The notes below the pieces were generated by a model that was given only the letters and a program-made list of their open reading frames with translations, was not told where the DNA came from and made no database searches. Shown here piece after piece: positions 20,501 through 59,228 of a stretch of 64,000 bases of DNA. Origin of the DNA: Pegea sp. RAD2-039 (lineage: Eukaryota > Chordata > Thaliacea > Salpida > Salpidae); the NCBI GenBank assembly GCA_034620365.1, contig JAQGEQ010000295.1, forward strand, positions 186,001 to 250,000. Direction: 5' to 3'. The position numbers and the translations under genes were made by a program. The first letter of the stretch is position 1. Each line of letters opens with the position of its first letter.

Positions 20501-23500
20501 ATTTCCTCTTTTACACTAAAATGATTTTTCCCAAATAAGGTACTTAAGATCTTTCAACTCTGAAGGCATGTTAAGTAATTGGCGTAAAACATGTATTATC
20601 ATATAATATTCAATTTCAGTTTGAATAAGTTCCAAAAAAATAAAATCTTATCATAATTCAGGGTTAATAAGTGAAAATAAGTTCGTTTTCATTAATTTAG
20701 AATAGTTTTATTTTATATAAAAGTTACATTTTTTTTAAAATAGCAAGTAAAGAGTTTGAAATTTTTAACAATAAAATGGATTTAATGATCAACATTTTTT
20801 CTTTGCTTTTTCAAAAGCATTTCGTCCTATCACTAGTTTAAAGTTATGAAATATTTTTGTAATCAAAACAGTTTACCAGTAAAATGTTTTTAAAAACCCG
20901 TGATATTGAAGTTTAAAAATCCTTTATTTGCAAATAAACAAATTTAAACTTGTGAAAATGTTATGCTAAAACTTGAAGTTAAAAATTACAACTAATAGAA
21001 AAGTTATTCTGAGTCTAAACTTTCCTTTGCTCAAAATGGTAATTTTAAATTTCTTTTAAAATCGCTTGTAGAATACAGTAAACCATGACAAGACATTTCT
21101 TCGTTTCTAAGATAATCACTAAGATGAATCTTGTAAACAGAAATATTTCGCATAATTTATCATGAATCAAGTGTAACTAGAAACAGCCTTAAATTTTCAG
21201 AAATCTTTCCAGCATTTGCAAGTTTTTTTAAAGAGTAAGATTTCCCAAGTCGATGGAATCAATGAAACACTTTAAAACAATGACAATTTCTATAAAAGTA
21301 GGCAATTAAATTAAATATACACATTTGATTTTATTGTTGAAAATGAGTTTTGGCGAAAAAATGCAGTATATATGATATAAAACTGTTATTGCTCCGAGTG
21401 ATTGCTTACTAATTAATCCTTAGGATGGTAATATTTGACCTCAAGGTATCTTATCATATTTAACTTTGCCATAGTAGATATTAATTGTGATATTTCTTCG
21501 TATTTTGTTGTATTGTTGTTTTATTTTAACTTTGACGTAATAAAACAATTAATATTTCTACTAAAATTAATCATTAAACAAATTCAGTTATATACTAAAC
21601 CTTTTCCCTTTAATCTTATTAATCATATGCAGCGGTATTCTGTTGCAATTATAATAAATTTCTAGATAATCCAATTTCACCCATTGCATTTACTCAAAGT
21701 TGAAAGAAATTATTTCAAATTAAGTAATATACAAAAAGATAAATTTGTGATTTAATTTTATTCCGATTTGCATCTTAATTGCAATTTAATGTTTAGAATG
21801 AATTATCTAGACATCTTAGTTACAGTTTGTATTACGATTGTCACAAATCTGCCGAGTTAAATGATTTATTCAAATTTTTTTTAAGATCTTTTAAAGGATT
21901 ACATAAGACGCTGTGTTTTGAGGTCGTTTTCAAATTGTCGTAAACTTCAATATTTACAAAAATATCACAAATTTAAGAAATAAATTTTGATGAATTATTA
22001 TTTAATTTTTGATTTTTACAAAAAGAAAACTAAATAATTGCTGCAATCAGTATAAATTAAGGCGTCATCACCACATTTTCAGCAGTTTGTCGTACAAATG
22101 CATTTTTGATAAGATATCAAAAAATTTCATTTTGTTTGATCATTAAAAAATAAATCATCAGGTGGTAAGTGCTGAATAATCACTGGAACAGGAGAATATT
22201 AAGTCATGTTTAACTTTATTATAGTAATCGCTTTCTGTTCATGTTAGTAATCAGCGGTATTTTGTTTTAATTGAAACAGTTTTCTAGAAAATATAAATTT
22301 TACCATAGTATTTAGACAAAGTTGAAAAAAACTGTTTGAAAATTAATAAATAGTTAATGGATAATGCTCAAGGTAAACTCTGAGGTTCAATTTGTTCCTT
22401 TTTGCATCTTTATTTCTTATTAATCTGTAAATGAAATTAGCTAGACTGCATTCTAAGACATATTCAAAGTGGTCATACTAGTTGATGTGGAATAATCATC
22501 TAAAACAATTTTTATTTAACATAAATTCAAAAAAGCTTTATTTTTAAAGAATGCAAATGTTACTTATTTATTTATTTATTACAATAAATGTGAAGGAGGG
22601 TGCCTAAAGAGAGCACCTCTCGCTAACACACATTCTCACAAATTTGTAATTGATCAATTGAAATATAAAAACTTATTTAACTTAAGAATTATTGAGTATT
22701 TTAACATCAAACATATCGTTTTCTAAAACCTTCTTGTTTATTTTGCATTGTTGTATGTAAAGGTAAGTAATTGTTAGGGTATTATTACATTATCCTAATA
22801 AATGCTTACTTCAATTTTTCAACATTATAATCGGTATTAGTATGTAAGAAATGACAAAAAATTAAAATTTTAAATATGAAGTATTTATTGTAGCTTCAAA
22901 ATAAGTTTTTAAATCAAGTGTCTTTTAGAGACCTAAATAATCATTTAAAACAGATGGTTTTGATAAGCCATGTGTCATTTTAGTGTCACTAACAATTATA
23001 CTTTTTAAAATCAAAAACTTTTATTTTTCAGACCTAAAATTTTTAGTTGAACTAGAAATAATTGCAGCATCTACTACTATATTTTCATTTAAAATTATCA
23101 ACAATCTTCATTAAAAAATTAATTTATTAAATCGGTGTAACATTTAGAACTTAAACGAAATAAAAAATTGATAAGTATTTTTTGGTAATTGCTACTAAAA
23201 TATGTTAAAAATTTGTAAAAGTCAGTTATAGAAATCCGAAACAATTATAAAATGCTATACAAAATATCTGACCAAATTTTAAAAAAAATTTTGCTTTTAA
23301 CAATTCATTAAAGCTTTTTGTTTTAATCTTTGACTATTTCTGACACTAATTTTTTATTTGATGTAAAAGTTTTACAGCTGAATATTTTCTGCACAACATA
23401 TGATGCTTATATGATGGTTTTTAAAAGTTACTTTAACCTAGAATAAACCTAAAGTAAAGTTCGTAGTAATCTCAAACAGAAGTAGTAGTTTCTAGAATGG

Positions 23501-24258
23501 ATATTTGTTAAGTTTTTAAACTCTGCTGAGCTTAATTCTCTGAGTCTACCACATTTTCCGAATTATGATGAAACAATCATTAAGTAGATTTTTAATCAAG
23601 TTTTAAGCAAGTTAATCAAAGAAAAAGTATTTGAAAACTTTTTCAAGAACTATTATCTCCTTATTTCCGGTTTCCTATGTTTTAATGAGTAATGAAATTG
23701 ATAGGAAATAAACTGAAGCCGATCAATTTCATTAATATGCCTTTATTTTATAAAAGTTAGAAGAATAAAAAAGTTTTTGAGTATAAATATAATAATATAA
23801 GTATAAAAATATTAAGTAAGGTGCTTGAAAAGAATAATATTGTTTTATGCAGAATAATAAGTTTTATATATAATGAAGATACAAATAAAGAATAAAATAT
23901 TTAATTTATTTCACTTCAGTAATTCCCACACAAAATACCAGTGAAAACACAGAAAAATATCTGAAAATCATTGAACATTTTAAGAAAGTATTTTATACTG
24001 AACAATCTGCGGACAAATCAAGTTCAAACAAGTTCTTTACTAGAAAAGTAAAAAATTGTAAAGATTTTAGTTTTAACAGTAATCTATTGAGTTTTTTATC
24101 TAATTATTACAAAATTCTTCATTAAAACAGTTGTTTCTGCAACAAACTGTCTTTTATTCTTTTTATAAATTTTTAACAGTACATTTTTTCAAATGCTTGC
24201 TTTCTTGTTTACGAAACTTTGTATTATTACATCAAACAACATTTTACTAAGTGATAAA
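17515..24258. repeat. Tandem array unit B
   Basis: Full unit of about 6.7 kb from the junction (gatgagtttgtaaacacc) to the retrotransposon insertion. Anchors: 19596 (ttttaggtccgttt block), 21629, 22062, 22971 and 23655, in the same order as in A, C and D. Unlike A and D, the segment corresponding to A 13264-15905 is absent and is replaced by an antisense retrotransposon tail (22564-22644). From about 20050 to 23230 it is nearly identical to unit C, while its last kilobase resembles A instead. No protein-coding gene recognised. Confidence 0.8.
22564..22644 (-). mobile_element. 3'-end fragment of the non-LTR element, antisense (in unit B)
   Basis: Read on the minus strand, this is the last ~80 bp of the element at 24259-28624: tttgtgagaatgtgtgttag, then the gaggtgctct...aggcaccctcc hairpin, then cacatttattgtaataaa and the TAAA tail. 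It is an extreme 5' truncation. Flanking unit sequence shows it replaces about 2.6 kb present in unit A. The same fragment at the same site occurs in unit C, so it predates the B/C duplication. Confidence 0.85.
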
Positions 24259-24461: not shown

Positions 24462-25457
24462 ATGGAAACTATGGTAGATACAAATGACAGGACCTTGCGG
24501 TCAAAAGCTCCAAAAAACCCAAGCAAACCAAGTTCTTCAAAACAAGCTTGCAATGGCAATTGCCAAGCTTGTAACAAAACTTGCTCTGGTAAAGATCTGG
24601 CAATAGATTGCATCAAATGCCTCTCTAGGTTTCACCTCACTTGTAGTGATGTGAATAAAAAATTATATTATATATTTGAAAATAATAAAATGCAGCAAGT
24701 GGGATTTTGTTGGTCCTGCATTAAATGTAGATCTATGGACAAAACAACTACCTCGTCCAACACTAACAAAAGCCTATTGTCTGACATCAGCAACACCATA
24801 TCCACTGAATTGACCAAATTAAAATCTGAAATCGGCAACGATGTTGCCAAAATCAATGAAAAGATTTCTATCTTATCCAAATCTATGGATGAACTGGAAG
24901 CCTCCACAAAGAAGCCTCTCACATGGGCCTCAGTTGTTGGTAATTCTGGATCCGAAAAAAATACTAGCGTGGTGCAACTTCTTGCCAAGAAGGTTACTGA
25001 CACGCACAAGAAACTTACTTTGGACCGGGAGGATAGAGAAAACAATGTCATCATCTTTGGTGTCCCTGAGACTGATAAAGACGATGACATCAAGACTTTT
25101 AATCAAATGTGCACTCAAGGCCTTGGTGCTGTGGACACTCCAAAAGTTTCAATGACCAGACTCGGGGCAAAAAGATCAAATCATAAAAGACCGTTAAAAG
25201 TTTCCTTTCAGGAAAGATGGGACAAACGTAAGTTTCTTGCTAAGCTGTATAAACTTAAGCAGGACGAAAAATTCCAGGGCATCAGAGTAGCACATGATAT
25301 GTGTGAAGATGATCGCGTAGAAAATAAGCGTCTTCTAAAAGAGGCGTACAGCCGAAATCAGAAAGAGCAACCAACTGATTTCAAATACAAAGTTCGAGGT
25401 CCACCATGGGCTTTACAGATTGTGAAGGTCTTTTCAAAAAACGGAAGTGCAAAATAA
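24462..25457 (+). CDS. LINE ORF1 protein (Cys/His finger, coiled coil, nucleic-acid-binding domain)
   Basis: Intact 331-aa frame from an ATG to TAA. In order: a short basic N-terminus; a PHD-like cluster at residues 30-89 with Cys34, Cys37, Cys41, Cys50, Cys53, His58, Cys61, Cys83, Cys86 and Cys89; a heptad-like helical stretch at about 100-145, a likely coiled coil; and a C-terminal region (about 180-310) with NNVIIFGVPE and RPLKVSF, resembling the RRM-like nucleic-acid-binding domain of LINE ORF1 proteins. In this family ORF1p binds the element RNA and forms multimers with it; I infer that from the layout. PHD-type fingers are known in ORF1 of some CR1 elements. It ends shortly before, or overlaps by about 50 nt, the start of ORF2 in another frame. 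Confidence 0.85.
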   Translation: METMVDTNDRTLRSKAPKNPSKPSSSKQACNGNCQACNKTCSGKDLAIDCIKCLSRFHLTCSDVNKKLYYIFENNKMQQVGFCWSCIKCRSMDKTTTSSNTNKSLLSDISNTISTELTKLKSEIGNDVAKINEKISILSKSMDELEASTKKPLTWASVVGNSGSEKNTSVVQLLAKKVTDTHKKLTLDREDRENNVIIFGVPETDKDDDIKTFNQMCTQGLGAVDTPKVSMTRLGAKRSNHKRPLKVSFQERWDKRKFLAKLYKLKQDEKFQGIRVAHDMCEDDRVENKRLLKEAYSRNQKEQPTDFKYKVRGPPWALQIVKVFSKNGSAK

Positions 25458-25513
25458 CCACTGGACCCACATCACCCTTATTCAACCTCTCTTCGCACAA
25501 AATTATTAATACT

Positions 25514-28455
25514 ATGCTTCCAGCCCAAGATAACAGTACACAGAAGACTACCACCAAATCTTACAAGTGTCAAAAAGACAATTTTTCTTTTATATTAGGT
25601 ATGTTTTTCAACGCACGGTCAATTGTCAACAAAATTTTCGAATTGAAAGCTCTTTTGCTTTCTCAAGATTTTACATTTGTTTTCATTACCGAAACTTGGT
25701 TGAAACCCTTTTATCCTGACTCCTTTCTGGATGACAGTGATCTTTTTCGTGCTTTGCGCTGTGATAGACTGTCTGATAGAGGCGCGGCGGTGTTTGTGTA
25801 ATCTATAAAACATCACTGGCACCCATGATTTCAAGAATTAAGATAAATACCATTGATTGCCCAGGATTTGAGATTATTGCTTTCAATTTTCATTACTCAA
25901 AGTCTAAGTTTTCCCGCTTTATATGTACCTACCTACCACCGTCTAAAGTTAACGATGAGGTTACTATTAAGGCCTTATTGAAGGTTCTGAAAAGCCTTGT
26001 TTGTCCTGAGATGTATATTCTCGGGGATTTTAATTTTAGTAGAATTGATTGGAATAACCCAAATTTAGCATTCAATGGAAAAATGTTTAATTTGAATGGA
26101 GACAAAACTAATTTAGCCAATCTGAGTCATGTCTTTGTAAACTTCCTTGATGCCAATAATCTATCTCAGATGGTTACTTTTCCAACCCAAGTTAGTGGTA
26201 ATACTTTGGATCTTCTCATCACATCAAAACCTGATAACGTTATCTACGTTGATCAAAATGAACCTTTTGCTCTGACATGCGATCACAACATGATTGAATT
26301 CAAGCTCCAACAAACTTTTTCTACGAACGTTAAAACTCCAAGCATACGGAACTTTTATCGTGGAAATTATAACAGTATAAACAAGTTTTTATCAGGTGTT
26401 GACTGGATTTCTGTTTTCAACTCTACCGAAGACATCAATGATATCTACTCGAGGTTTACTAACATTGTTAATGAGTCAATTAAAAAGTTCATACCTTTAT
26501 ATAGAGTCAACAAAAAACCACACTTGCCAAGATATTTAAGGAATTTACAGCATTTGAAAAACCTCTTATACAAACAAACTAAAGCAGATCCTTCCATCAA
26601 ACCTCTATACAAAGATCTTTGTCTAGTCTACAAGAAATCAGTTTATAGCCTCTATTTAGGAAAAGAAAGTGCAATCTTATCTTCACCTAGCAAGAAAACG
26701 TTTTTTGGCTTCATTAATCACAAGCTTAAGGCGAGATCTCATCTACCTCCCTTGCTTGATAACGCCAATCAGCTGGTGATGGAACCAAAGAATAAAGCTG
26801 AATTGCTAAACAAACAATTTGAAAAGGTTTTTATAACTGATGATGGCAATACTCCTACTATTTCCTACTCCAATATCCTTTCAAATATCTCTGAGATGGT
26901 AGATCTAGACATAACAGTTGATATAGTATCTAAGGCTATTTCTTCTCTAAAATCAACAGTTTCCAACACCCCAGATCAAATCCCAGCTTTGTTTTTAAGA
27001 AAAAGTACTTCTTCTTTAGCGCTACCCTTATCGCTACTCTTTAACATGACTCTTAAGCGGGGAAGACTTCCACAAATTTGGAAGAATGCTATTATTACTC
27101 CAATTTATAAGAAGGGTCCTAGAAACACTGCACTTAACTACAGACCAGTTTCGCTGACTTCGGTTATCTGCAGAACTCAAGAACACATCATTCACAACCA
27201 TATAACTAGCCATTTGACGGAGCATCATTTAATATCTGATGCCCAGCATGGCTTTGTTAAGCAAAGATCTTCTTTGACTCAACATCTCACTTTTTTCAAT
27301 GAGCTTACAGCTCATTACGAAAGTAATACTCCATGTGACATCATATACCTTGATTTTGCTAAAGCGTTTGATTCTGTTCCACACAACAAGCTCATTACTG
27401 TATTGAAAAACATAAAAATCAGCAACTCTATCTTAAAATGGATTGAAGATTTCTTATCAGGTAGAACCCAACGAACCCGTGTAGAAAGATCTTTATCTAC
27501 TCCTAGTAAAGTCACCAGCGGCGTTCCTCAAGGTTCCGTCCTGGGTCCACTTCTCTTTTTGATTTTCATTGAAGACCTCATCAGAAGACTAATAACAGTA
27601 GACAATGTCAGTGTGTTTGTGTATGCAGACGACATCAAGCTATTATCTGGTTCTCACTCAAAACTCCAAACTGCACTAAATATTGTAGAAAACTGGTCTG
27701 CGAATTGGCAACTTAAAATCCAGCCAACAAAGTCTGAAGTTATAACATTCTCCCGTAAGCCAGCTGCCAACTTCAGCAACCAATACTACATCAATGGATA
27801 TATTCTTGAACGAGTATCCTCAGTCATAGACCTCGGCATTACTCTGACATCTGACTTCAAATGGCACAGTTATGTTTCCAGAATCTTTGGAAAATCTATC
27901 AAGCTTGTCCACCTCATCATAAAGACTTTTAATTCTAAAAATCCATGGTTTTACGTGAACCTTTTCAAACTGTACATACGCCCTATTCTTGAATACAATG
28001 TCAGTGCATGGATGCCATATCAAGTTGGTGATGTCAGAAAAATCGAATCTGTTCAGGCAAAATTTACGAGATTGGTTTGCAGGAAACTTAATATCAAATA
28101 CGAGAGTTATAAGCATCGTCTCAGCTTCTTCAATCTAGATACTTTGGAAATCCGAAGAATCAAATACGACCTTATTCTGATTTTTAAAATTATTCACAAC
28201 CTAATTGATCTTCAGTTTGATGACTTTTTCTCCATTAGTCCCTCCCTCAAGTTATATCAACTTAGAAGACATAAATGACATCTTAATAAGCCCACTCCAC
28301 CAGCTACGTTAACCAGATTAAGTTTTTTCTCATACCGCACAATCAGTACATGGAACAATCTGCCATCAGAGATTGTCATGTCAAAATCACTTGTGTTGTT
28401 CAAGAAAAAGCTGAATTGTTATAATATCGCCAACATTGCCATTTCTAAACTGTGA
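25514..28455 (+). pseudogene. LINE ORF2: endonuclease-reverse transcriptase, broken
   Basis: ORF2 can start at ATG 25514 (or 25406, overlapping ORF1). The endonuclease begins with NARSIVNK (about 25612) and TETWL (about 25690), then the frame hits TAA at 25799-25801. The continuation lies in the next frame and stays open from there, with GDFN (about 26020) and DHNMIEF (about 26282) of the endonuclease, then the reverse transcriptase: NYRPVSLTSV, DFAKAFDSVPH, SGVPQGSVLGP and the catalytic YADD at 27622-27633. A second lesion is an in-frame TGA at 28276-28278; downstream codons remain open for another 58 codons to TGA 28453-28455 and match the end of the 62-kb copy (SYRTI, TWN, LPS). So one indel near 25795 plus one nonsense change separate this copy from a full frame; function is probably lost. 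Confidence 0.85.
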
Positions 28456-28624: not shown

Positions 28625-31600
28625 GATGGATTCGTAAACACCAAATAAGGAACTATATAAAACGTTACATTTATATAAATTTATTTTTGAAGAGTTTTGG
28701 AAAGTTAATACTTTCCTCTAACTATACTAAATATTTTCAAAAGAATATAAAAATGATGTAGTAGTTTATTTGGTAAAAATGTAACAGAAACATAATAACA
28801 AAGGAAACTTATATCATATATAGAATCAATTAAAAACTAATTGAATTTTAATATTAATAAATAGAACCATAAAAGATTTTCTTTGAAAATTTTAAACATT
28901 TATTCATTTTATACTTGAATATGTCCATTATTTTTTCAGAGAATATTGTTCGGTATTCACCGTTTATTACCATAAAGTTGGTCATCTGCAGCCATGTGTC
29001 TTGTGAGCTGTTATGACTCAACAAAATTTAGTTATGTGTCTTCTTCTGATGTCTCATTTAAAATCTTGATTAGATCTTCTATTTACTGGATTGTTGTTTC
29101 TTAACTGTAAAAGAAAAAAATTGGTAGACATAGATATTTAAACTAAATTTGAGATCCTAACTACTTAAAAGCTTGTTCAACATGTATTTTAAAAGAGTCA
29201 CAGAAATAAGTTTATATCAACTTATATTTCCTTTAAACAAAAGAACAGCGAAAGTATGTTATGTCATCTTATATCTCGAGTAATATTTTTACAAATGATA
29301 TTACTTCTTTTAGTTTATTTTGTTGTTTCTTTATAATTTATTTTTTTTTCATTTTAATTTTATTTCTTGTAATCTCTTATCAAAGTAATAAAACTTGAAA
29401 TGTTAATATTTGATGACTGCTTTAATTTATATAAAACAGCGGTATGCTTGGGGAAGTAGTAACAATTTATCTTAAATAAGTGGAGTAAGCATATATTGAA
29501 GATCTGTTAATAGTTTATTTTAGAGACTTCGCGTCAAGTTTCTTTGAAAATTTGTAATATCTCTAATGATGCATTTACGATGTCATCTTAGATTTAAATA
29601 ATCAAATTTATTGAACCGTATTTTTTTTTTGTATTTGGTTTTATGCAAAGAACAAACTATACCTGTGCATGATTTAACATAATTTTCTTTTATTGACCCT
29701 TTCAGAAATTCTCAAGAAGTGTTAAAAGTAGTCATTTGTGAAAATAAAACAACTGTGTTATGTTAGCAATACAAAATTTTAGGAAAAAACAAAGGCCTTC
29801 ATCACAAATCAGTTCCTTTTGAGTTTTGGTCTTAGTAGAAACTAATAGATCAAAAATATTTAGCTGAAAAGGATCTTAATAAAAGTGCTTAATTTGTATC
29901 TTCAAGTTTGCATTGACTGTAAATATTTCACAGCTTGAAAGTTTCATTTTACAATAGAAATAAGATTCACCACCTTTTTTGTTGGCTATGTATGTACCAA
30001 AAGATTGAGCAGTACAATTACATCCAAAAATAAATATTTCTGTTCCAATTTTATTGGTCAAATCTTGTACAACAACTTCAAATCAACTACAAGAAAATAA
30101 TTTCATTATGTTTAGACAAGCTCAAAGTTCTGTTTGTAACATCAATTGGTTTGACATCGATTACTATGTCTACAATAATATCGAATTCAAGATATAAGTT
30201 TGAAAAATTCTTTAATAAAAAATATTTCATAAGATGGGTTTTATCTTTAAAACTTACTCAGCTGTTAAATGAGAATTAAACCAAACTTTAAAGATCGAAT
30301 GATTAATGTAAGCAAACCAATGTGTTATGTAAAAGCCATTTTAAACCAAATGGAACGTATGTTATATGAAAACTAAAAGTAAAAACAAATTCTATAAATG
30401 TTTTAGGTCCGTTTTATGTTTATTGACCGCTTACTGATAACATGGCGCAGCTAGGTTATAAGTAACTAAGGCCACTGAAATGCAATATAACATACATCAT
30501 ACAACTGCGCTAATTATTGACGAATTTTCTTGCTAAACATAAAATTTTAAACTTCTATATCCATATCACCTGTAATTTACATTTTAATTGAAGATAATAT
30601 CCTAAATTAAAACATACGAGTTGGCCTTAATAAGCAGTTAATTATAACAAAGCTGAGTTTTTATATTTTTCTATGGTGATACTCAGTGCTGCATACTTAC
30701 TAAGCAATAGCAAAACAATTTTATATTGTATTAAATTAGTTTAGGGAAACATAAAAATTGCTAGTATAGGGTACTAGTCGATGATAGATTTTTGGAGAAT
30801 AGATTCTTCGGTGGTATTTGACAATATAACTTTTAATCATGAGAGTAAGTAAGTGATGTTGTTGTACAATTAGTAGTTTAGGTGTACGTTACAACAAATA
30901 TATTGCATTTGTTAACTAATTGATGACTTTGTTATTGGCAATTCTTTTTAATATTATAATAGTTTAAGATCGCTAGCCTTCTTGCGACTTTAAACTAAAA
31001 CCATTATTGTATAATATTTATCTGATATTAAAAATCACCCAGTAAAAATAATAGAAAATACAGCTAAAATGATGGTTTATAATATGAAAAGTCACAAAAA
31101 ATATTCGAACTTTGCTAAAAAATAACAATGATTTTTTTTAAATACCTAACTAGTAAACGTTTTTCACTTGGGAATAAGATTTTTACAGCTGAATGTTAAT
31201 CATTGTAAGTTAAGTATATGGAGCTTGTGATAAATTTTACGAATTTATAAAAAGATATCAAACTACAAATTTACAACAATTCTGCTATGAAGTTAAATTA
31301 ATAAATATTTCCTCTTTTACACTAAAATGATTTTTCCCAAATAAGGTACTTAAGATCTTTCAACTCTGAAGGCATGTTAAGTAATTGGCGTAAAACATGT
31401 ATTATCATATAATATTCAATTTCAGTTTGAATAAGTTCCAAAAAAATAAAATCTTATCATAATTCAGGGTTAATAAGTGAAAATAAGTTCGTTTTCATTA
31501 ATTTAGAATAGTTTTATTTTATATAAAAGTTACATTTTTTTTAAAATAGCAAGTAAAGAGTTTGAAATTTTTAACAATAAAATGGATTTAATGATCAACA

Positions 31601-34600
31601 TTTTTTCTTTGCTTTTTCAAAAGCATTTCGGCCTATCACTAGTTTAAAGTTATGAAATATTTTTGTAATCAAAACAGTTTACCAGTAAAATGTTTTTAAA
31701 AACCCGTGATATTGAAGTTTAAAAATCCTTTATTTGCAAATAAACAAATTTAAACTTGTGAAAATGTTATGCTAAAACTTGAAGTTAAAAATTACAACTA
31801 ATAGAAAAGTTATTCTGAGTCTAAACTTTCCTTTGCTCAAAATGGTAATTTTAAATTTCTTTTAAAATCGCTTGTAGAATACAGTAAACCATGACAAGAC
31901 ATTTCTTCGTTTCTAAGATAATCACTAAGATGAATCTTGTAAACAGAAATATTTCGCATAATTTATCATGAATCAAGTGTAACTAGAAACAGCCTTAAAT
32001 TTTCAGAAATCTTTCCAGCATTTGCAAGTTTTTTTAAAGAGTAAGATTTCCCAAGTCGATGGAATCAATGAAACACTTTAAAACAATGACAATTTCTATA
32101 AAAGTAGGCAATTAAATTAAATATACACATTTGATTTTATTGTTGAAAATGAGTTTTGGCGAAAAAATGCAGTATATATGATATAAAACTGTTATTGCTC
32201 CGAGTGATTGCTTACTAATTAATCCTTAGGATGGTAATATTTGACCTCAAGGTATCTTATCATATTTAACTTTGCCATAGTAGATATTAATTGTGATATT
32301 TCTTCGTATTTTGTTGTATTGTTGTTTTATTTTAACTTTGACGTAATAAAACAATTAATATTTCTACTAAAATTAATCATTTAACAAATTCAGTTATATA
32401 CTAAACCTTTTCCCTTTAATCTTATTAATCATATGCAGTGGTATTCTGTTGCAATTATAATAAATTTCTAGATAATCCAATTTCACCCATTGCATTTACT
32501 CAAAGTTGAAAGAAATTATTTCAAATTAAGTAATATACAAAAAGATAAATTTATGATTTAATTTTATTCCGATTTGCATCTTAATTGCAATTTAATGTTT
32601 AGAATGAATTATCTAGACATCTTAGTTACAGTTTGTATTACGATTGTCACAAATCTGCCGAGTTAAATGATTTATTCAAATGTTTTTTAAGATCTTTTAA
32701 AGGATTACATAAGACGCTGTGTTTTGAGGTCGTTTTCAAATTGTCGTAAACTTCAATATTTACAAAAATATCACAAGTTTAAGAAATAAATTTTGATGAA
32801 TTATTATTTAATTTTTGATTTTTACAAAAAGAAAACTAAATAATTGCTGCAATCAGTATAAATTAAGGCGTCATCACCACAATTTCAGCAGTTTGTCGTA
32901 CAAATGCATTTTTGATAAGATATCAAAAAATTTCATTTTGTTTGATAAATAAAAAATAAATCATCAGGTGGTAAGTGCTGAATAATCACTGGAACAGGAG
33001 AATATTAAGTCATGTTTAACTTTATTATAGTAAGCGCTTTCTGTTCATGTTAGTAATCAGCGGTATTTTGTTTTAATTGAAACAGTTTTCTAGAAAATAT
33101 AAATTTTACCATAGTATTTAGACAAAGTTGAAAAAAACTGTTTGAAAATTAATAAATAGTTAATGGATAATGCTCAAGGTAAACTCTGAGGTTCAATTTG
33201 TTCCTTTTTGCATCTTTATTTCTTATTAATCTGTAAATGAAATTAGCTAGACTGCATTCTAAGACATATTCAAAGTGGTCATACTAGTTGATGTGGAATA
33301 ATCATCTAAAACAATTTTTATTTAACATAAAATCAAAAAAGCTTTATTTTTAAAGAATGCAAATGTTACTTATTTATTTATTTATTACAATAAATGTGAA
33401 GGAGGGTGCCTAAAGAGAGCACCTCTCGCTAACACACATTCTCACAAATTTGTAATTGATCAATTGAAATATAAAAACTTATTTAACTTAAGAATTATTG
33501 AGTATTTTAACATCAAACATATCGTTTTCTAAAACCTTATTGTTTATTTTGCATTGTTGTATATAAAGGTAAGTAATTGTTAGGGTATTATTACATTATC
33601 CTAATAAATGCTTACTTCAATTTTTCAACATTATAATCGGTATTAGTATGTAAGAAACGACAAAAAATTAAAATTTTAAATATGAAGTATTTATTGTAGC
33701 TTCAAAATAAGTTTTTAAATCAAGTGTCTTTTAGAGACCTAAATAATCATTTAAAACAGATGGTTTTGATAAGCCATGTGTCATTTTAGTGTCACTATCA
33801 ATTATACTTTTTAAAATCAAAAACTTTTATTTTTCAGACTTAAAATTTTTAGTTGAACTAGAAATAATTGCAGCATCTACTACTATATTTTCATTTAAAA
33901 TTATCAACAATCTTCATTAAAAAATTAATTTATTAAATCGGTGTAACATTTAGAACTTAAACGAAATAAAAAATTGATAAGTATTTTTTGGTGATTGCTA
34001 CTAAAATATGTTAAACATTTGTAAAAGTCAGTTATAGAAATCCGAAACAATTAAAAAATTTTATACAAAATATCTGTCCAAATTTTAAAAAAAATTTTGC
34101 TTTTAACAATTCATTAAAGGTTTTAGTTTTAATCTTTGACTATTTCTGACACTAATTTTTTATTTGATGTAAAAGTTATACAACTGAAAATTTTCTGCAC
34201 AACTTATGATACTTATATGATACTTTTTTTTAAGTTACTTTAACCTAGAATAAACCTAAAGTAAAGTTCGTGGTAGTCTCAAACAGAAGTAGTAATTTCT
34301 ACAATGGATATTAGTTAAGTTTTTAAAGCTCTGCTGCACCTAATTCTCGGAGTCTACCACATTTTCCGAATTATGATGAAACAATCATTAAGTAGATTTT
34401 TATTTCTACCTAATTACAACAAATTAGATAAAGCAAGTTAATCAAAGAAAAAATATATGAAAACTTTTTCAAGAACTATTATCTCCTTATTTCCGGTTTC
34501 CTATTTTGTACTCAGTATTGAACATTATAGTAAATAAACTGAAGCTGATTATTTTCATTAATATGCTTTTAATTTATAAAAGTTAGAAGAATAAAAAAGT

Positions 34601-35114
34601 TTTTAACAATAAATATAATAATATAAGTATAAAAATGTGAGGAAAGATGCTTGAAAAGATCACCTTTTGCTAATATCGAATCTCCCAAATAATATTATGT
34701 AGACTAATAAGTTTTGTATATAATGAAGATACGAATAAAGAAAAAAATATGCAACTTATTTCACTTCAGTAATCCCCACACGAGATACCAGTGAATACAC
34801 ACAGAAAAATCTATGAAATTCATTGAACATTCCTCAGAAAGTAATTTAAACTGAACAATCTTTCGAAAAATCAAATTCAAACAAGTTTTTTTTTTGAAAA
34901 AGTAAAAAATTGTAAGGATTTCAGTTTTAACTCTATTGCAACGAGCTTTTTATTTAATTATTACAAAATACTTTATTAACATAGATGTATCTGCTACAAA
35001 ATGTTTTTGATTCTTTTTCTAAATTTATAACAGTAAATCTGATTTAAATGCTTGCATTCTTATTTACAAACCTAGTATTATTACATCAAATAACATTTTA
35101 CTAAGTGATATATA
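28625..35114. repeat. Tandem array unit C
   Basis: Full unit of about 6.5 kb. Head at 28625 (gatggattcgtaaacacc) parallels 17515 in B. Anchors at 30402, 32434, 32867, 33774 and 34488. About 30850-34040 is almost identical to B 20050-23230. After that it shares features with D instead, for example acaacaaattagataaagc near 34422, present in D near 42001 and absent in A and B. A 600-bp piece of B's head (about 18010-18310) is missing here. No coding gene recognised. Confidence 0.8.
33370..33450 (-). mobile_element. 3'-end fragment of the non-LTR element, antisense (in unit C)
   Basis: Base-for-base counterpart of the fragment at 22564-22644 in unit B, at the same place in the unit. It holds the element hairpin and TAAA tail in reverse orientation. 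Shared by B and C and absent from A and D, so it dates the B/C pair as the most recent duplication. Confidence 0.85.
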
Positions 35115-43790: not shown

Positions 43791-44618
43791 TTAAATGTTT
43801 GAAGGTTCACTTGAAGTCATAACATAAATGTCATCACCCTCATATGTAAGCTCGTAGTTGACGAATTTTAAACCATTTTCTAAACAGCTTAAAGAGGAAG
43901 AATCATTTAATTGAGTTTCATCTACAGGCAGGTCAGATTTATCTACTGAATTAGTTTTATCTTTATCAAGGTTGACTTTACAATCTTTAACTAATTCATC
44001 ATTTGCTGACAACATCGTATCTTTTTGATTCTCCGAATTTTGAATATTAGCACCATTTTCTCTGAAAATAAGGTTTTCAGCGGGCCCTTCTTCTAACTTC
44101 AAATCATCATTGTGAGATGCTTCTTCAGAAGAACCTTGCTCAAATCTTACTTTTGTTCCATTTGGAACCTCGATTGCAATCAAGGCCTCACAATCGTTGA
44201 AACATTTAGAGACATCGTCAAATTCAACAAATGCAAGCTTATTTTCATTAGCTTCCTTGATATCCTCATTAAAACGATTTTGCACAACTTTTAACAACTC
44301 ATCAAGGTGTGACTCTTCTTGGTCAAGCAACAGGTTATCAAATTTTAGTGATGCTATCTTAGAAATAAGGTCATCACCTTCAAGTTCACAACCAACCCAT
44401 TTTATACAACTAGAGCCTATTTTTTCAATCAGTCCAACTGCTTCAAGAACACAGGTTACATCATACAAGCGTCTTGGTCTTGGTAATTTCAATTTTTCAG
44501 TAGCTGTTTGAATGTCTAAAATACCACCTCTAGAACTTCTAAGCAAACTTACAAATTTTATTGCTAGTAGCCTCAATGATTTTTCAGACCTAGCCTTTGA
44601 TTCTACTGAATCTGCCAT
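43791..44618 (-). CDS. E2F4/5/6-like transcription factor, single coding exon
   Basis: 275 aa from ATG 44618 to TAA 43791. Residues 10-76 form an E2F winged-helix domain (EKSLRLLAIKFVSLL, RRLYDVTCVLEAVGLIEK, CIKWVG); the EKSL...L.KFVSLL and VGLIEK forms are closest to E2F4/5/6. Residues 80-160 match the E2F dimerisation/marked-box part (ESHLDELL, LAFVEFDDVSKCF, ALIAIEVPNGT). The tail is acidic/Ser/Asn-rich and lacks the LFD pocket-binding motif of E2F4/5, so an E2F6-like repressor is possible. Oddities: no introns, although the neighbouring E2F has one inside this domain, and the usually invariant Asn-Val-Leu-Glu-Gly reads Cys-Val-Leu-Glu-Ala. A possible 5' UTR acceptor (TTTTAG, ending at 44648) leaves room for a leader exon. 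AATAAA follows the stop by about 45 nt. It would bind E2F sites with a DP partner; family certain, subtype inferred. Confidence 0.85.
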   Translation of the reverse strand: MADSVESKARSEKSLRLLAIKFVSLLRSSRGGILDIQTATEKLKLPRPRRLYDVTCVLEAVGLIEKIGSSCIKWVGCELEGDDLISKIASLKFDNLLLDQEESHLDELLKVVQNRFNEDIKEANENKLAFVEFDDVSKCFNDCEALIAIEVPNGTKVRFEQGSSEEASHNDDLKLEEGPAENLIFRENGANIQNSENQKDTMLSANDELVKDCKVNLDKDKTNSVDKSDLPVDETQLNDSSSLSCLENGLKFVNYELTYEGDDIYVMTSSEPSNI

Positions 44619-48291: not shown

Positions 48292-51200
48292 CTACCACAA
48301 GAAAGCCTTGCCGCTTAAATTACAGACGAAATTTAAATCTTTGGTATGTTCACGTTTGACATGTTGCTGTAATGCATAATCGAATTGAAAGACTTTTGAA
48401 CATAACTTACACTCAAAACGCTTATCATTCTGGTGACTTTTAGCATGTAATTGAAGCTTACACTTCTTATCAGTTGTATCACGATTTTCACAGCCTATTA
48501 TACTTGCATAGGACTTTTCACATTTAGTATATTCATAAGAGTTGTTTTTATTCTCATCATGTTCCTTGTTGAGGTCTTTTAAGGTGTCACTTGAATCATC
48601 ATCTTGTTTGAAGCAATGCCTCTTACATTCACCGTTTGAATGCTTATTCTTGATATGTTCATCAAGAAACTTTTTCAGCTCAAAATGTTGATTGCAGTAT
48701 TTGCATGCAAACGCAGCTCCTACAAATAAACATTTAGTAAAAATTAATCAGTTAATAAAAAAAAACTTACTTTTCAGCTGTGGGTAAATAAACTTATTAG
48801 TATTTAGAATCAATTTTCTTTTTCTAGAACTTGTTGGTATTTCATTTATTGTTGATACCTAAGGAATAAAAATGCATAATACACTTTCAGGAAAATAAAT
48901 CTAGGAAATGTTTGTTACTTAATGGCCCTTTACTTACATAATTAGATGATGATGGACTAGAACCTTGTAAATAATGCTCTTGAGAACTTGAAGAAGCTCC
49001 TATATACAACAGAATAGTTAAATGGTATCAATTATCTGATTTTAAGTTAATAGGATTTTGTAAACTGAACATTAATGTACCAAACTGACATAATTATTTG
49101 TAGTCCAATTCATGATGATAAGTTTAATATTCAGTTCTAATTTTTAGGATAGTACAAGATTTTTACACTAATAATTTAATATTTCTAATAACTCCTGACT
49201 TGCATAAAGAATATAGTGAACAAAATATTATCACCTTCATCAGTACCAGTTTTCACCTTATTTCTTAATCTATATCGATGTTTATTAGGAGCTGAATCGT
49301 CGATGTCAATTGAATCATTTTCATCTTCAGCAACATTAGTTTCAAATTCAGGATTTGAAAAAAAATCAATTTTGTTTTCTGGCAGAAAATAATTTAGATT
49401 AATTTTAACTTGAGTTGCACAAGAGTTTTTACAGTTGATTAAGATTAAATATATACATTATTTATTAATATATTATCATGCGTTGTTTAAGTACCATTTC
49501 GTTTTTTACCTTCTGAAAATACTGCAGATTCTTCTGTGTTGTTGCTATGTAACAGTTTCGATTTATATAATTTCTCGAAAGCTGTCAGCTTCGACTATAA
49601 AGTAAACATAAAAGTAATTTAAACTCAAAATTTAAAAATACTATCTGGGATAATATTAATCAAAATGTCTACAAGACATCAGTACTTAAGCTATATTTGA
49701 TTACGTAAAGTTAACAAAATAAAAAAATATTCTAACTGTGATAAAAATAAAAAGTGTAATATTTAATACATGCAAAAAATATAAACAAAGTTGAACTTAT
49801 CTGAACTTACATCAGTGGCTGTAGACAATGATGCTACAACAAGTTCTTGAGAACTTAAAGAAGCACCTGTACACAATAAATTCAATTTTTTAAACCAGCT
49901 GTACAAAATATGTAATTCTAATCATAAGACCAAAAGTTCTAAGAGTGATCCTCTCTTACAATTTAGGTGATAATTAATTTTTCCATCGAAAAACTTATTC
50001 TTTCAACAAAAAATAGAATGACAAACTACAGCAATTAAAAACTGGTGATTAACCTGTGGTAACACCAGTTATAAATTCTTTTTTATCAAAAAAACTTTTT
50101 TTAATAAGTTATCTAATTAAGAAAAAATAAAAAATTAATCAGTTTCAAGAATTTCAAAACCTTTAATAGCTTCTCTTAATGGTTCGTAAACTTGCTCTTT
50201 CAGTATATGTGGTATATCTGATAGCAGCAAATTAAATGTACTATATTTTTGATGAACTAATTTTAATTAGATTAATTAATTAAAGCTAGAAATTGAATAA
50301 ATATATAGTTAAGCTACATCGTCAATAAAGATTAAATTTCAAAATTGAGGCATGTTCATAAGACTACAATATTTTAATTTTGATATATTATCCAACCAAT
50401 TTCAAAGTACCTTCTTCAGCAACTCGGTCCAATAAATATGTTGTCTGAGATTTTACAGTATTTGTTTGAGACATCATATCATCTGTGCCATTTTTTGTTG
50501 GACGCCGACCACGTTGTTTATTTAGTATGAGAGGAATATCTGTAAGCAGCAAATTGAATAAATTGTATTCTCCAAATGTTTCATAATTAATGAAGAAATA
50601 AAATAAGAAGACTTAAAATATGTTTTGATTATAATATTTGCATCTATCTTTCATTTAAATTCAAAACAAGTATTAATATAAAACAAAGTTCAAGTTATTA
50701 TTATATTGAGATTTCTGAATTCAATTGCTTATATTACTTTCAGGAAATGGTATAAAAACAAGTGAGCTGTTGGCATTCGTTTCCTCAGTCTTGATGTGTC
50801 GCCTGATTTTCCTCATCGTTGGCTATTTAACAAATTAAAAAGTTAAAATATTACGAACCAAACTGTCAAGGGAATTGATTAACTACAAAATATCCAGCCT
50901 CTGGTTAGAAACAAATAACTAGAAGGTAATAAGTATAAATAAACAAACTAAAGATAATTTTTCAATATTTTTTAGAAACTAGTATTTATAAAACCAATGA
51001 TAGTCAATAATAAATAAACACTTAAAAACAGAACATAAATGACAGCTTTAAACTTACATCATCATCTTGGGAAGATAACTCTGAAGAGATTAAATTTGAA
51101 GATGATGGATAGCTCTTGGGAAAACTTTCTGCTACATACAACAAATTTAACTAATTAATGAATTGATATTTAAAACGAACATATTAACAAAAACTACATT

Positions 51201-54200
51201 GAAATTTAGCTATGTCTGCTAAAAACGTTTTATATAGTTTATATAAGCATTGCTATTTCTAAATAGATCAGTTTAAAACATTTTCCAAACGTTTTTGAAT
51301 AATTAACTGAACAACATATTAAGTTAGTTGGCAGGAGTTGTATAATTAAGAGATATCTTCATTAAAAAATTTACTTTGAAAATCTGGCTTACTAATAAAA
51401 CTACAAAATTTATTTCAACAGTTTGTAAAACTATTTTTCAATTACCTTCTTCGATAACGTGGTCAGATAAATTTTCTAACTCGTTTTTAACAGTATCATT
51501 TTTAAGACGTTTATTTGTACTGTTTTTTTCTGGTGGCTGATCAAATTGTTTATTCTGTAATGCGGGAACATCTGTCAACAATAATTTGAATTAATTATAA
51601 ATCGAAAAGATACATTAAATGTCGTAGAGTTGAAATGATTACAATAAAGGTTATTTCTGACTATGAAATACTAATTATTTATGTCTATCATTTAAATTTG
51701 ATCCAATCATAAGTTTGAGATAAAGATCTTGTAATTATTGTCAAAGTAATAAGTCTTGATTTAAAGGTTCAAAAGTTTATATTACTTTCAACAGATAGTG
51801 AAGAAACTTCAAAATTAATAGCATTCCTTGGATGAGTTTCGGCGTCTTGTTTAATTTTCATCATGTCTGCCTATTTAAGAAAAATATTTAAATATTTAAA
51901 ACGAAACTGCCAATAAAAATAGCTAACTTCAAAACAACCAGCTTTCAGTTAAAAAGAGTAATCTAAGAAATAATTATTTAAATAAACAAAAGAAAGAAAA
52001 CATTTATAGAATCAAACACAATCAGTCATCTCAATACTAATCAGTTAATTCCTCTAATTATCATTTACCGTAGATTTATCTTTGTCCTCATCAAGAGTAG
52101 AGGTAAATTCTAAGTCTTCGTTTTCAACTTCACGTTTAGGGATTAGAAGACATCTAACATCTGATTCTGATAGTGAATTATAATGCTTGTTAAATAATTA
52201 GTAAATACTTGCCAGCATATAATTGAATGGAAACTAATTTTAATACTTGATGACTTTATTATAATGTTAATGTTTATCACAACTAAAGCTTTGAAAATCA
52301 GTCCTTATTTTGCTGTATTCAAGATCACATCATAACCAATTGCTAAGTTGTTATTCATAAAACATCACTTAGAAGTGTTTCTTATATATTATATGTGTCG
52401 ACGATTTATAATTTAAATAAATATGATTTTTAAATTAAGATCCAATAATTACACAAATTGTGTTATTTCTAAACTGAATTTACCTTTCTCGAATGGTGAA
52501 AACGTTTCAATTTTATCCAATTGTATCTGATCAGATTTTAGACAGTTTTTGGTAATCATCGGGTCTGGCTATCGATAAAAAAAAACAAAAAAGAATATTA
52601 TAGATAAAATTGTGAATGGCAAATATGATTTTCAAACTATCATCCAAGGTACAAAAACTAGAAATATGATAACTAAAATTTTTTTCCTTAAAAAATGCAT
52701 TAAAATAAAGTTTAAAAAGCATTAAATATTAATTTTATAAAGTAACTTCTCCAAACTTACGTCAACAGTTGTTGGTAATGGAGTAGCAGAAGTTGAGAAA
52801 CTATGCTTTTGAAAAGCAGAAAAAGCACCTGAATATAAAAATATTACAATATTACATTGATATATATTAGATATTACTAGAGCTCAGATAGTAGATAAAA
52901 GTATAGTTTTTTATCAAAAGCTAAATTGAAAAAAAAATTTCATAACATTTTTAAACTTATTAGTCAATTTTGTAGAATAACGTTATAATCACCTGGATAA
53001 CTATCAGAAAATGAATATATGGGGCTAGGTAAATCATAATGATCTTCATCAAAAGCTTCAGGAATATAAAAGTTATTTTTTCTAGCTGATTAAATCTAAG
53101 AAAATAAATACCTGCAAAGTGTTCTCTAATTATCTTGGGGAAATCTGTCAACAACAAATTAAATCACTTTGAAATTTGTTTCTAAAAATCTGCTATTTTT
53201 ACTGAAGATGATAAGGCAAAGAGCTGGCAAAGCTGCCTAAGTGTGATATAGAACTAGTCATCACCATCGGCTTGCTTGTTTTTTTATATAAGTAAATAAT
53301 TTTTGCTCATATACTAAGAATATTTAAGCAACAAGATTTTTACAAATAATAATAAAAAACGACTTTACTTTTATAAGGAGGTAATTCATTTTCATCATTA
53401 TCATCATCATCCTTCAATTCATCTTGATTCTTATTTTTATTAGGCAAATCAATTTGAAGAATCAAATCTGTTTGAAGAAATTTAGTTGACAATAAGAAAT
53501 TTCAGTAATTACATCAAAAATTCTAAAACATCAAAGTGCATATGCAACTATCAATTATGAATTTTAAATAAACATTTACTAATTGACATGTGTTTATTAC
53601 TAATCAGAGCTTTTAATTCCTTATAACAAAATCATTAAATTATTACTTTCTTGAAATGGTTTTAAGCCATCTATTTTTTGTTGTTGATAAGACTCTGAAT
53701 TTATACCGGTTAAACACTGTTTTTTCGAGTTTTGCTATAAAGAAAAACAAAAAGTGAAGATTAATATAAAATAAATCTATTTAGAAACACAACAATCTAT
53801 TAGTCTTATAAAAGAAATTTAATACATACAATAGTTCATGCCTAACGGCTAAACACAAATATATCTTTAATTTTTAAAATAAAAGTATTTATAATTTCTT
53901 CACTTACATCTTCTTTATAAAAAGTAAGAGACTCCTTAGGAGAAATATGTAGAGTCATGACATCACCATCGTTCTTCTTTATTTGCTCATCTCCTCTTAT
54001 ACTCTGTAGGATTACAGATTGACCATACAGAATATCTTGTAGGCTCCAACTGATATTTCTGCTTAATCTTTTTTTTTCAAACCATATTGCAACCTCTTCC
54101 GTCGTCATGTTAAATTTTACTGATAATGTTGATAATCTAGTATCCGAGGGGTATGGATATTGTTTGAAGGCTTCTTCAAGCTTCTTTTGGGTAGATGAAG

Positions 54201-54288
54201 GGATTAAAGATGTTGATGAAGTTTCATTAGTTACAATGTAATCATTATCTTCTAACCAATTACCTACACTAAAATTAGTCTTACTCAT
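48292..54288 (-). CDS. Homeodomain plus C2H2 zinc-finger protein with repeated exons (20 exons)
   Basis: Exons on the minus strand: 54288-53908, 53734-53647, 53467-53369, 53144-53112, 53085-52993, 52828-52761, 52568-52484, 52166-52069, 51870-51786, 51571-51446, 51131-51058, 50822-50738, 50539-50411, 50217-50161, 49866-49811, 49594-49510, 49378-49235, 48999-48938, 48858-48771, 48719-48292. All are GT-AG, phases agree, total 2364 nt = 787 aa plus stop. Residues about 26-83 form a divergent homeodomain (LEEAFKQYPYPS, VAIWFEKKRL); the normally invariant Asn51 of helix 3 is Lys. The middle (128-620) is acidic, Ser/Asn/Lys-rich and probably disordered, built from repeated exon types. The last exon has C2H2 fingers at Cys651-His672 and Cys749-His770, a degenerate stretch between them, and a broken finger cut by the stop. 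One exon has an AT-hook-like RGRRP (50411-50539). Role unknown; a nuclear DNA-binding regulator is likely. The 54288 start, homeodomain and fingers are firm; exon 50217-50161 (donor GTTTTG) is the weakest. Confidence 0.72.
49235..53144 (-). repeat. Repeated small-exon cassette inside the homeodomain/zinc-finger gene
   Basis: Three exon types recur. Type A (phase 1 to 0): 52828-52761, 51131-51058, 49866-49811, 48999-48938; three of them start GA(F/S), for example GASLSSQEL and GASSSSQEH. Type B (phase 0 to 1): 52568-52484, 51870-51786, 50822-50738, 49594-49510, all exactly 85 nt, with 53734-53647 at 88 nt. Type C (starts after a ttgctgct/ttgttgacag intron end): DFPKII, DVPALQNKQ, DIPLILNKQ, DIPHILKEQ at 53144, 51571, 50539 and 50217. 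Neighbouring copies are about 1.03-1.05 kb apart (B at 51870 and 50822; C at 51571 and 50539), and intron edges are similar too (ttaaatag acceptors, gtaatata donors). Confidence 0.7.
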
Positions 54289-57830: not shown

Positions 57831-59228
57831 ATGGATGACTGTGAAGATATTTCTCAGCTTGTTGCCAAGTATTGCTTGCCAAATCCAACTGATGGAACAT
57901 TTCAACCAACTGCAACCACAATGAAAGCTACAACAAATATGGTTCTTCCTTATGGTCATATGCAAACATCTGTAAATGAACAGGATAATCTTGGTTACAA
58001 CTACCAGAAGAATTTTGCAAACCATTTAGATCGAAACCTGTTTGCAGTGGAGAGACCTAATACACATGGTCAAGTAATGCATCAGTTACCAATTGTTCAA
58101 AACGAAGGTGGCAGCCAACACGTTTTACGCGTGGTAATAGAAACGTTACATTATCCTATTACACTTGATGTAATTTATAAAATCTTTACTAATTTTGGTA
58201 AGGTTTTAAAGGCTATTATTTTCAACAAGAACAGTCAATTCCAAGCACTTATACAAATGGAGAAACAAACAGATTCACAAGCTGCTAAGCTTTGTTTAGA
58301 TGGTCAGAATATCTACAAGGGATGCTGTACTCTACGTGTAGACTACAGCAGGTTGCAGAACCTTAATGTAAAGTACAACAACGATAAAAGTCGTGATTAC
58401 ACCAGAAATGATTTACCATCTGGTGAAATTAACAACCCAATGGTTCAGCTGAATAATGGAGTGGATCCTTGCTACTTAACTAAACTACAATCAGCTGCTT
58501 TGCAACAGAATCTAAGTTCAATAGCTAACTTTCAGCAATATCAGATTGAATTGATGAAACAAAAAGCTAATGGTCAACTGTCTAACCCCAACGTCACTTT
58601 TCAACTTCCTGCCGTTGTTGAAAACCAACAAAGCAACTTATGCCCTGTTCTTCATGTTTCCAATCTTAATACAGATGATGTCACACCGAAAGTTTTGTTT
58701 ACACTTTTTGGGGTATATGGCGACGTTGTTCGAGTAAAGATTCTTTTTAAAACGAAAAGTAGCGCGCTAGTTCAAATGAACGATGGCACGCAAGCTTGTT
58801 TGGTCAGGAGGTACTTACATGGAGTGAAGTTATTCGGAAAACCAATGCACATTGTAAAATCGAAACACAGTCAAGTGAAAATGCCTCGAGATGGTCAAGA
58901 TGAAGAGAATTTGACGCGAGATTATGCTAACTCATCTTTGCATCGTTTTAAGAAGCCCGGTTCTAAAAATTATTCCAATATCTTTGCTCCTTCTGATGTC
59001 CTTCATCTATCAAACATTCCTCAAGAGATCACTGAAGTCTTCATCAAAAAAGCATTCAGTAAACATGTTGGTGTGAGAGATTTTAAATTTTTCGCTAAAG
59101 ATCGAAAAATGGCCTTAATAAAGTTGAACTCTGTTGAAAATGCTGTCACTGCTCTGGTTAAATTGCATAACTTGAAACTGACCGATACCTATCATTTGAG
59201 AGTGTCTTTTTCGAAAGGTTATCTTTAA
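57831..59228 (+). CDS. PTBP-like RNA-binding protein, intronless, three RRMs
   Basis: 465 aa from ATG 57831 (the frame is open from 57729, but this is the first ATG) to TAA. Seen: RRM2 of the polypyrimidine-tract-binding family at about 97-171 (QFQALIQ, LDGQNIYKGCCTLRVDYS), followed by the family's near-invariant linker NVKYNNDKSRDYTR and DLPSG; a linker rich in Gln/Asn; RRM3 at about 273-344 (VLHVSNLN, LFGVYGDVVRVKIL); RRM4 at about 388-462 (VLHLSNIP, RKMALIKL). Usual PTBP proteins have about 530-560 aa and four RRMs; here RRM1 is absent and a 96-residue unrelated N-terminus replaces it. PTBP genes are normally intron-rich, so the unbroken frame suggests a retrogene; no poly(A) remnant or target-site duplication is obvious. 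It should bind CU-rich RNA in splicing or mRNA control. Upstream exons encoding RRM1 cannot be wholly excluded. AATAAA occurs at about 59718 and 59808. Confidence 0.88.
   Translation: MDDCEDISQLVAKYCLPNPTDGTFQPTATTMKATTNMVLPYGHMQTSVNEQDNLGYNYQKNFANHLDRNLFAVERPNTHGQVMHQLPIVQNEGGSQHVLRVVIETLHYPITLDVIYKIFTNFGKVLKAIIFNKNSQFQALIQMEKQTDSQAAKLCLDGQNIYKGCCTLRVDYSRLQNLNVKYNNDKSRDYTRNDLPSGEINNPMVQLNNGVDPCYLTKLQSAALQQNLSSIANFQQYQIELMKQKANGQLSNPNVTFQLPAVVENQQSNLCPVLHVSNLNTDDVTPKVLFTLFGVYGDVVRVKILFKTKSSALVQMNDGTQACLVRRYLHGVKLFGKPMHIVKSKHSQVKMPRDGQDEENLTRDYANSSLHRFKKPGSKNYSNIFAPSDVLHLSNIPQEITEVFIKKAFSKHVGVRDFKFFAKDRKMALIKLNSVENAVTALVKLHNLKLTDTYHLRVSFSKGYL

Follow-up and report, generated by a model that had tools for sequence, protein, structure and literature searches.

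Tandem duplication of an exon cassette within a predicted homeodomain/zinc-finger gene of the salp Pegea sp. RAD2-039

Background

The growth of genes by addition of exon cassettes is best known in structural proteins, or in the form of swappable single exons. The PEVK region of titin has been described in terms of exon duplication and loss and of tandem duplications of longer exon regions (PMC6469411), and its exons number about 100 (113 annotated in human and 99 in mouse). For KRAB zinc-finger genes, positive selection has been described at the specificity residues (PMC4592553). Here we analyzed a stretch of 64,000 nucleotides (nt), hereafter the window, from Pegea sp. RAD2-039 (NCBI GenBank assembly GCA_034620365.1, contig JAQGEQ010000295.1, positions 186,001 to 250,000 of the forward strand), in which we predict a 20-exon gene on the minus strand (window positions 54288-48292) consisting of a homeodomain exon (E1), 18 middle exons (E2-E19) and a zinc-finger exon (E20). 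A preliminary description of this DNA had proposed that such a gene grows by tandem duplication of exon cassettes while keeping frame, which our exon, intron and unit alignments confirm; the gene reaches further than the interval 49235-53734 given at that time.

Evidence for tandem duplication

We compared E2-E19, each with 60-nt flanks, in all 153 pairs using 60 shuffles per pair, with E5 taken in a longer form (see below); the exon types are B (phase 0 to 1), C (1 to 1) and A (1 to 0). When E4/E5 and E18/E19 were set aside from the ranking because of their physical overlap, the ten most similar pairs were all (10/10) of the same type, namely, E10/E13 (z = 29.1), E9/E12 (17.2), E15/E18 (8.4), E2/E7 (7.7), E13/E14 (7.4), E6/E18 (6.8), E6/E15 (4.5), E4/E10 (4.3), E7/E9 (4.0) and E7/E12 (3.1). 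Below them ranked E5/E10 (z = 3.0) and the first pair of plainly different types, E4/E11 (z = 2.9). The 36 same-type pairs also stood apart from the 117 others (Mann-Whitney p = 6.6e-7), where the pairs are non-independent and the latter group took in E4/E5, E18/E19 and every pair with E5 or E8, both untyped in this comparison. The introns, compared after trimming of the splice signals (171 pairs), gave a similar picture: the top three pairs, E8-E9/E11-E12 (z = 5.9), E9-E10/E12-E13 (4.4) and E10-E11/E13-E14 (4.0), all lie in register at a shift of one unit, while the fourth, E2-E3/E19-E20 (3.7), is off register. These results bear out the recurring exon types of the preliminary description.

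The clearest copies form a tandem unit of about 1.0 kb on the minus strand. Its upstream copy (52361-51341) holds E8, E9 and E10 plus introns, and its downstream copy (51306-50304) holds E11, E12 and most of E13, again with introns; the two lie head to tail with 34 bases between them, and their likeness continues through E13. They are identical at 642 of the 952 aligned nt, and the alignment score of 360 far exceeds that of 200 shuffles (81 +/- 11.6, maximum 119). Since the ten leading exon pairs each unite exons of the same type and a head-to-tail unit includes the introns, we conclude that an exon cassette has been duplicated in tandem within the predicted gene. The alignments demonstrate the putative exon types, one tandem unit of about 1 kb and a smaller duplication of a predicted C exon (E13/E14), as well as exon-level kinship of the predicted exons E2 and E7 and of E6, E15 and E18.

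Cassette composition and reading frame

The middle exons are arranged in units that run from a B to an A exon, i.e., E2-E6 (351 nt), E7-E8 (183 nt), E9-E11 (285 nt), E12-E15 (327 nt) and E16-E18 (291 nt), after which E19 leads into the finger exon. We envisage a putative composite cassette of a B exon, one or more C exons (absent in one unit) and an A exon. The lengths of all units (5/5) are divisible by three and each unit has phase 0 at both ends, so that the addition of a whole cassette leaves the frame intact. A single C exon, a whole unit or an A exon together with a B exon (5/5) could be omitted in frame, and an exchange of neighboring C exons would be frame-neutral; a B exon alone (85 or 88 nt, 1 modulo 3) cannot be skipped in frame. 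The earlier statement that exons can be left out in A+B or B+C combinations without a frameshift thus stands for the former only, because the three B+C combinations tried (85+126, 85+129 and 85+144) are each 1 modulo 3 and break the frame.

The starts of successive B exons are 1166, 698, 1048, 1228 and 736 nt apart, and the copy spacing of 1.03-1.05 kb claimed previously applies to three pairs only, E9-E12 (1048 nt), E10-E13 (1032 nt) and E8-E11 (1035 nt). The suggested shrinkage of the gene gained no support from a search for decayed exon copies in the introns, since the 257 comparisons returned one isolated match (z = 4.4), with neither splice sites nor an exon start, which we counted as chance.

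Gene model

The 20 exons, whose boundaries were chosen by eye with GT/AG splice sites obligatory, are joined in a single open frame. As an independent check we used a gene finder trained on paralogues of the focal gene and two neighboring genes, with zero focal sequence, at three intron penalties. At the mildest penalty it recovered 16 of the 20 exons exactly and three partially (E5, E8 and E19), missed E14 and predicted two tiny additional exons; the stricter penalties left 15 (at -7) and 14 (at -9) exact exons. Its score at -7 was 241, whereas 25 shuffles of the sequence between E1 and E20 averaged 72 and reached 81 at most. GT/AG introns alone suffice to model the gene well; in Fritillaria borealis canonical introns amount to only about 5% (PMC13326754), which speaks against this species as the source of the DNA.

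The exons, all on the minus strand, are as follows, with phases according to type unless stated. E1 (53908-54288, 381 nt, phase 0 to 0) carries the start codon and the homeodomain, the core of which lies at about 54186-54067. In the first unit, B exon E2 (53647-53734, 88 nt) and A exon E6 (52761-52828, 68 nt) are called by the gene finder, as is the acidic E3 (53369-53467, 99 nt), whose C type comes from phase and position; C exon E4 (53112-53144, 33 nt) is called at the mildest penalty only. E5 (52993-53055, 63 nt, phase 1 to 1) has a 93-nt alternative, which would require a 26-nt intron. The second unit consists of B exon E7 (52484-52568, 85 nt), called except at -9, and E8 (52069-52166, 98 nt), in an A position and called in part, which registers with E11 in the duplicated unit. 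All three exons of the third unit are called, namely, B exon E9 (51786-51870, 85 nt), C exon E10 (51446-51571, 126 nt) and, in an A position, E11 (51058-51131, 74 nt), and so are B exon E12 (50738-50822, 85 nt), C exon E13 (50411-50539, 129 nt) and A exon E15 (49811-49866, 56 nt) of the fourth. The remaining member of that unit, C exon E14 (50161-50217, 57 nt), has a weak donor, resembles E13 at a distance of 322 nt and is the least certain exon of the model, being passed over by the gene finder at all three penalties. The fifth unit, likewise called, comprises B exon E16 (49510-49594, 85 nt), with a weak likeness only (z = 2.8 to E7), E17 (49235-49378, 144 nt), assigned to C from phase and position (z = 2.2 to E10), and A exon E18 (48938-48999, 62 nt). 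E19 (48771-48858, 88 nt), in a B position, is called in part, and the zinc-finger exon E20 (48292-48719), which runs through the stop codon, is called. There are thus six B exons; the preliminary count of four with 85 nt is correct, while those of 88 nt are two (E2 and E19) rather than one.

With the acceptor at 53055, the better one, a 56-nt intron precedes E5 and the product has about 777 amino acids, whereas the 787-residue protein of the preliminary description needs the 26-nt intron. About 500 residues come from E2-E19; the hydropathy of this middle region (496 residues) is 0.401, the disorder boundary of the formula used for this comparison being 0.429, and 67% of its residues are D, E, K, R, S, T, N, Q, P or G. 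The linker of about 500 residues between homeodomain and fingers is probably disordered. We infer that the predicted exons are spliced into one mRNA and that the predicted protein is located in the nucleus.

Paralogue family in the same genome

The protein encoded by E1 matches 77 places in the 105.7-Mb genome, including 46 (E1 among them) at E 7e-10 or better, of which 44 are free of internal stops. Contigs C160, C70, C248, C251, C253, C247 and C87 harbor three to five of these strong places apiece, and some of the strong places may be haplotypic copies; for example, loci L036 and L037 are identical in the homeodomain segments used for the tree. We sampled 20 stretches (L023-L042), with exon lists covering 16 loci in full and the first seven exons of one further locus. 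A typical member has about six exons, only one of them of type B, and at most seven fingers. The usual order starts with the homeodomain exon (441 nt, phase 0 to 0), continues with the B, C, acidic and basic (60 nt) exons, and closes with a finger exon entered in phase 1. The B exon is predicted at 91 nt in 12 loci and at 85 nt in L024; that of L023 contains a stop. Since a single B exon stands ahead of the finger exon in all 13 B-bearing loci among the exon lists, the amplification is peculiar to the focal gene among the loci examined. The focal gene as modeled is an outlier of the family, with two fingers kept and the linker amplified.

Of the 20 loci, 15 have a finger exon that encodes at least three fingers, with 11 having six or more, and the zinc fingers of the family look fast-changing. 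The ratio of nonsynonymous to synonymous differences (pN/pS) at the DNA-contact positions of the fingers (-1, 2, 3 and 6) is 1.27, while the other positions give 0.28, or 0.40 when the zinc ligands are excluded, in a sample of 11 genes with six fingers each and 54 of the 55 pairs (a near-identical pair was dropped), where pairs are non-independent and no codon model was applied. This contact set has the highest pN among 3060 sets of four positions.

Two further observations concern the sampled stretches. In L026, L030 and L032 a short homeodomain exon continues into near-identical downstream sequence, as if repeat-borne. In L042 (5447-7831) a tandem repeat is suggested by 12 gene-finder calls of an identical 33-nt 'exon', spaced for the most part at about 196 bp.

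Homeodomain, zinc fingers and wider relatives

The E1 homeodomain matches the Pfam Homeodomain profile at E 8.2e-9 (35.6 bits, cut-off 22.9); all nine family members scanned (9/9) match this profile too. Asn at what we take to be homeodomain position 51 is absent from all 21 homeodomains (the focal gene and the 20 loci), which have M, K or I instead; the family consensus Met aligns with the Asn of engrailed. An alignment of nine members shows a conserved W-L, in most cases WLEEN, close to the N-terminus, perhaps an effector motif. In the homeodomain tree, the focal gene groups with L023 (support 0.914) and has the longest branch. E20 encodes two intact C2H2 fingers (about 48705-48640 and 48411-48346, minus strand), with degenerate fingers in between and a cut-off finger at the end, whereas the paralogues have three to seven (15 loci with a finger exon).

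No KRAB match was obtained with Pfam in the N-terminal pieces scanned from the focal gene and family members. In a word-based search the focal protein drew a single hit with E no higher than 0.01, to a Dreissena zinc-finger protein, and one such search with the first 200 residues of a typical member against 5.8 billion proteins revealed no relative among 230 candidates; as the search requires shared short words, distant relatives could escape it. No report of the focal gene or its family turned up among the literature matches listed, mostly titles and abstract openings.

Genomic surroundings

Two single open frames, a PTB-like gene (57831-59228, plus strand) and an E2F-like gene (43791-44618, minus strand), lie near the 20-exon gene, presenting a striking contrast in introns. 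Within the top 120 of the 4021 relatives listed for the PTB-like protein, the best named ones are from tunicates, with 55-59% identity, and two further ones from JGI and ENA sources have 74% and 66%. Elsewhere in the window, nested segmental duplications occupy 10789-42585, the largest pair (18305-24256 and 29113-35110) being 95% identical across 6 kb, and two adjacent open reading frames at 24462-28278 resemble by eye a retrotransposon without long terminal repeats (non-LTR), with similar sequence beside paralogue L037.

Weighing of the explanations

We are largely confident that the locus is a protein-coding gene of a homeodomain/C2H2 family, whose linker has been lengthened by tandem duplication of a composite B-C-A cassette. 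The divergent homeodomain and the two remaining fingers would be joined by a flexible tether, its length and its count of charged segments being set by the number of cassettes and its exact sequence being little constrained. Several points weigh against this explanation. Outside the 1.0-kb unit, the whole-unit pairs tried score within their shuffle maxima under strict scoring (laxer scoring gives z = 5.9, 4.3 and 3.0 for three other pairs), so the older copies are recognized mainly exon by exon, and E3, E5, E8, E11, E16, E17 and E19 are typed mainly via phase and position. The focal cassettes are unmatched to paralogue exons in DNA, by profiles or pairwise alignment, and hence do not point to the ancestral source of each exon type; E3 does score against the paralogue acidic exon (z = 7.2), which we attribute to GAT repeats. 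At the protein level, the C exons lean towards the acidic exon in E4 (z = 3.2), E10 (3.1), E14 (2.2) and E3 (2.0) and not in E13 (0.2) or E17 (0.6), and the focal B exons do not match those of the paralogues. The function is likewise at issue, since a nuclear DNA-binding protein that works through tether length is what we infer as most likely. Finally, the clearest copies have a nonsynonymous divergence (dN) of 0.57 and a synonymous divergence (dS) of 0.66, i.e., a dN/dS of about 0.86 (69 codons), a value also compatible with weak constraint or decay.

This near-neutral ratio is one of the reasons to consider the gene a relict of its family under relaxed constraint, perhaps non-functional, which has lost fingers and whose linker was free to expand; its two intact fingers and one cut-off finger, against the three to seven of the 15 paralogue loci, and its long branch in the tree point the same way. 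However, the frame is uninterrupted across 20 exons, the gene-model score lies far above the shuffles, the homeodomain is well over the Pfam cut-off, and four other exon pairs pooled have a dN of 0.55, a dS of 1.18 and thus a dN/dS of about 0.47 (81 codons), which makes such decay improbable to us. The frame is retained, with low to moderate constraint on the sequence. That A+B pairs, single C exons and whole units are omissible in frame might alternatively mean that alternative cassettes yield linkers of differing length from one gene, but duplication alone predicts the same frame compatibility, and skipping one B exon breaks the frame; we regard an isoform generator as quite improbable. Hardly credible is a locus free of duplication, in which splice consensus and low-complexity coding in an AT-rich genome create the likeness: several same-type exons do lack detectable similarity, yet exons of different types have the same consensus and fail to score, and the trimmed introns still pair in register. 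We rejected this explanation for E9/E12, E10/E13, E13/E14, E15/E18, E6/E18 and E2/E7 by exon alignment, and for the unit of about 1 kb by its alignment score against shuffles.

A possible, if unlikely, supplement to cassette duplication concerns the origin of the A exons, which might be scars of gene fusion, that is, chimeras from fused neighboring homeodomain-zinc-finger copies, each taking its acceptor from a finger exon and its donor from the homeodomain exon of the following copy, with ordinary tandem duplication afterwards. Such an origin would account for the phases of A (1 to 0), for B always following a phase-0 end, and for six B exons per one homeodomain exon and five A exons, and the family genes are indeed clustered; structurally the idea is appealing, and its support at the splice sites is limited. 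The A acceptors are closest to the gene's own finger-exon acceptor (a mean of 13.2 of 24 positions, compared with 9.5 for B and 7.9 for C; permutation p = 0.0003) and the A donors to the homeodomain-exon donor (13.0 compared with 10.8 and 7.7; p = 0.0025), although this test is post hoc, donor phase is confounded, and the p values overstate the significance since the A exons are mutually related. Moreover, in a wider acceptor alignment (-70 to +40) E11 alone stands out (z = 2.8), the E1 donor region compared with A exons across 100 nt gives nothing over z = 1.4, the A peptides do not match the tails of paralogue first exons, the corresponding DNA comparison yields z = 2.3 for E18, 1.4 for E15 and negative values for E6, E8 and E11, and no other family member is listed on the focal contig. 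An extension of this idea, which we consider speculative and rather unlikely, would see a tunicate-lineage arms-race family similar to KRAB zinc-finger proteins, with a degenerate homeodomain as its fixed N-terminal module; the focal gene would have arisen by the collapse of a tandem array of family genes, with loss of the internal homeodomains and finger arrays and with A exons remaining as chimeric phase adaptors, so that a former cluster would now form a single gene whose linker is repeated.

Comparison with known systems

The clustered paralogue family is possibly more interesting than the cassette itself. KRAB families (PMC4592553) resemble this family, rather than the focal gene, in their clusters, C2H2 arrays and excess change at contact positions, although the paralogue N-terminus is a divergent homeodomain, unlike in KRAB families. 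This raises the question of whether, in a chordate homeodomain-zinc-finger family, unrelated N-terminal modules could enter the genome-defence-like role of KRAB. ZHX proteins, like the focal family, combine C2H2 fingers with homeodomains. Their layout, with fingers first and several homeodomains, differs in order and number, and in profile comparison the focal-family homeodomain weakly matches those of ZHX2 and ZHX3, with many other homeodomains matching better.

For the cassette, the closest system in kind that we found is titin PEVK, in which many short exons encode a flexible region, as in the focal linker. However, titin is a muscle spring, while the focal gene would encode a putative transcription factor, with a unit of three exon types of unequal phases. 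Mutually exclusive tandem exons (PMC9013439) share with the focal gene neighboring homologous exons that arose by tandem duplication; in contrast, such clusters choose one exon per transcript, whereas the focal unit is composite, with an A exon required between C and B. Frame would permit mutual exclusivity among neighboring C exons, but not for B alone. A three-part cassette that stays in frame only via a phase-adapting exon, and that belongs to a putative DNA-binding protein, provides a clean case for studying how linkers between DNA-binding modules evolve. Tandem exon duplication as such is well known; the distinguishing feature here is that the cassette of a putative transcription factor is composite and phase-adapting.

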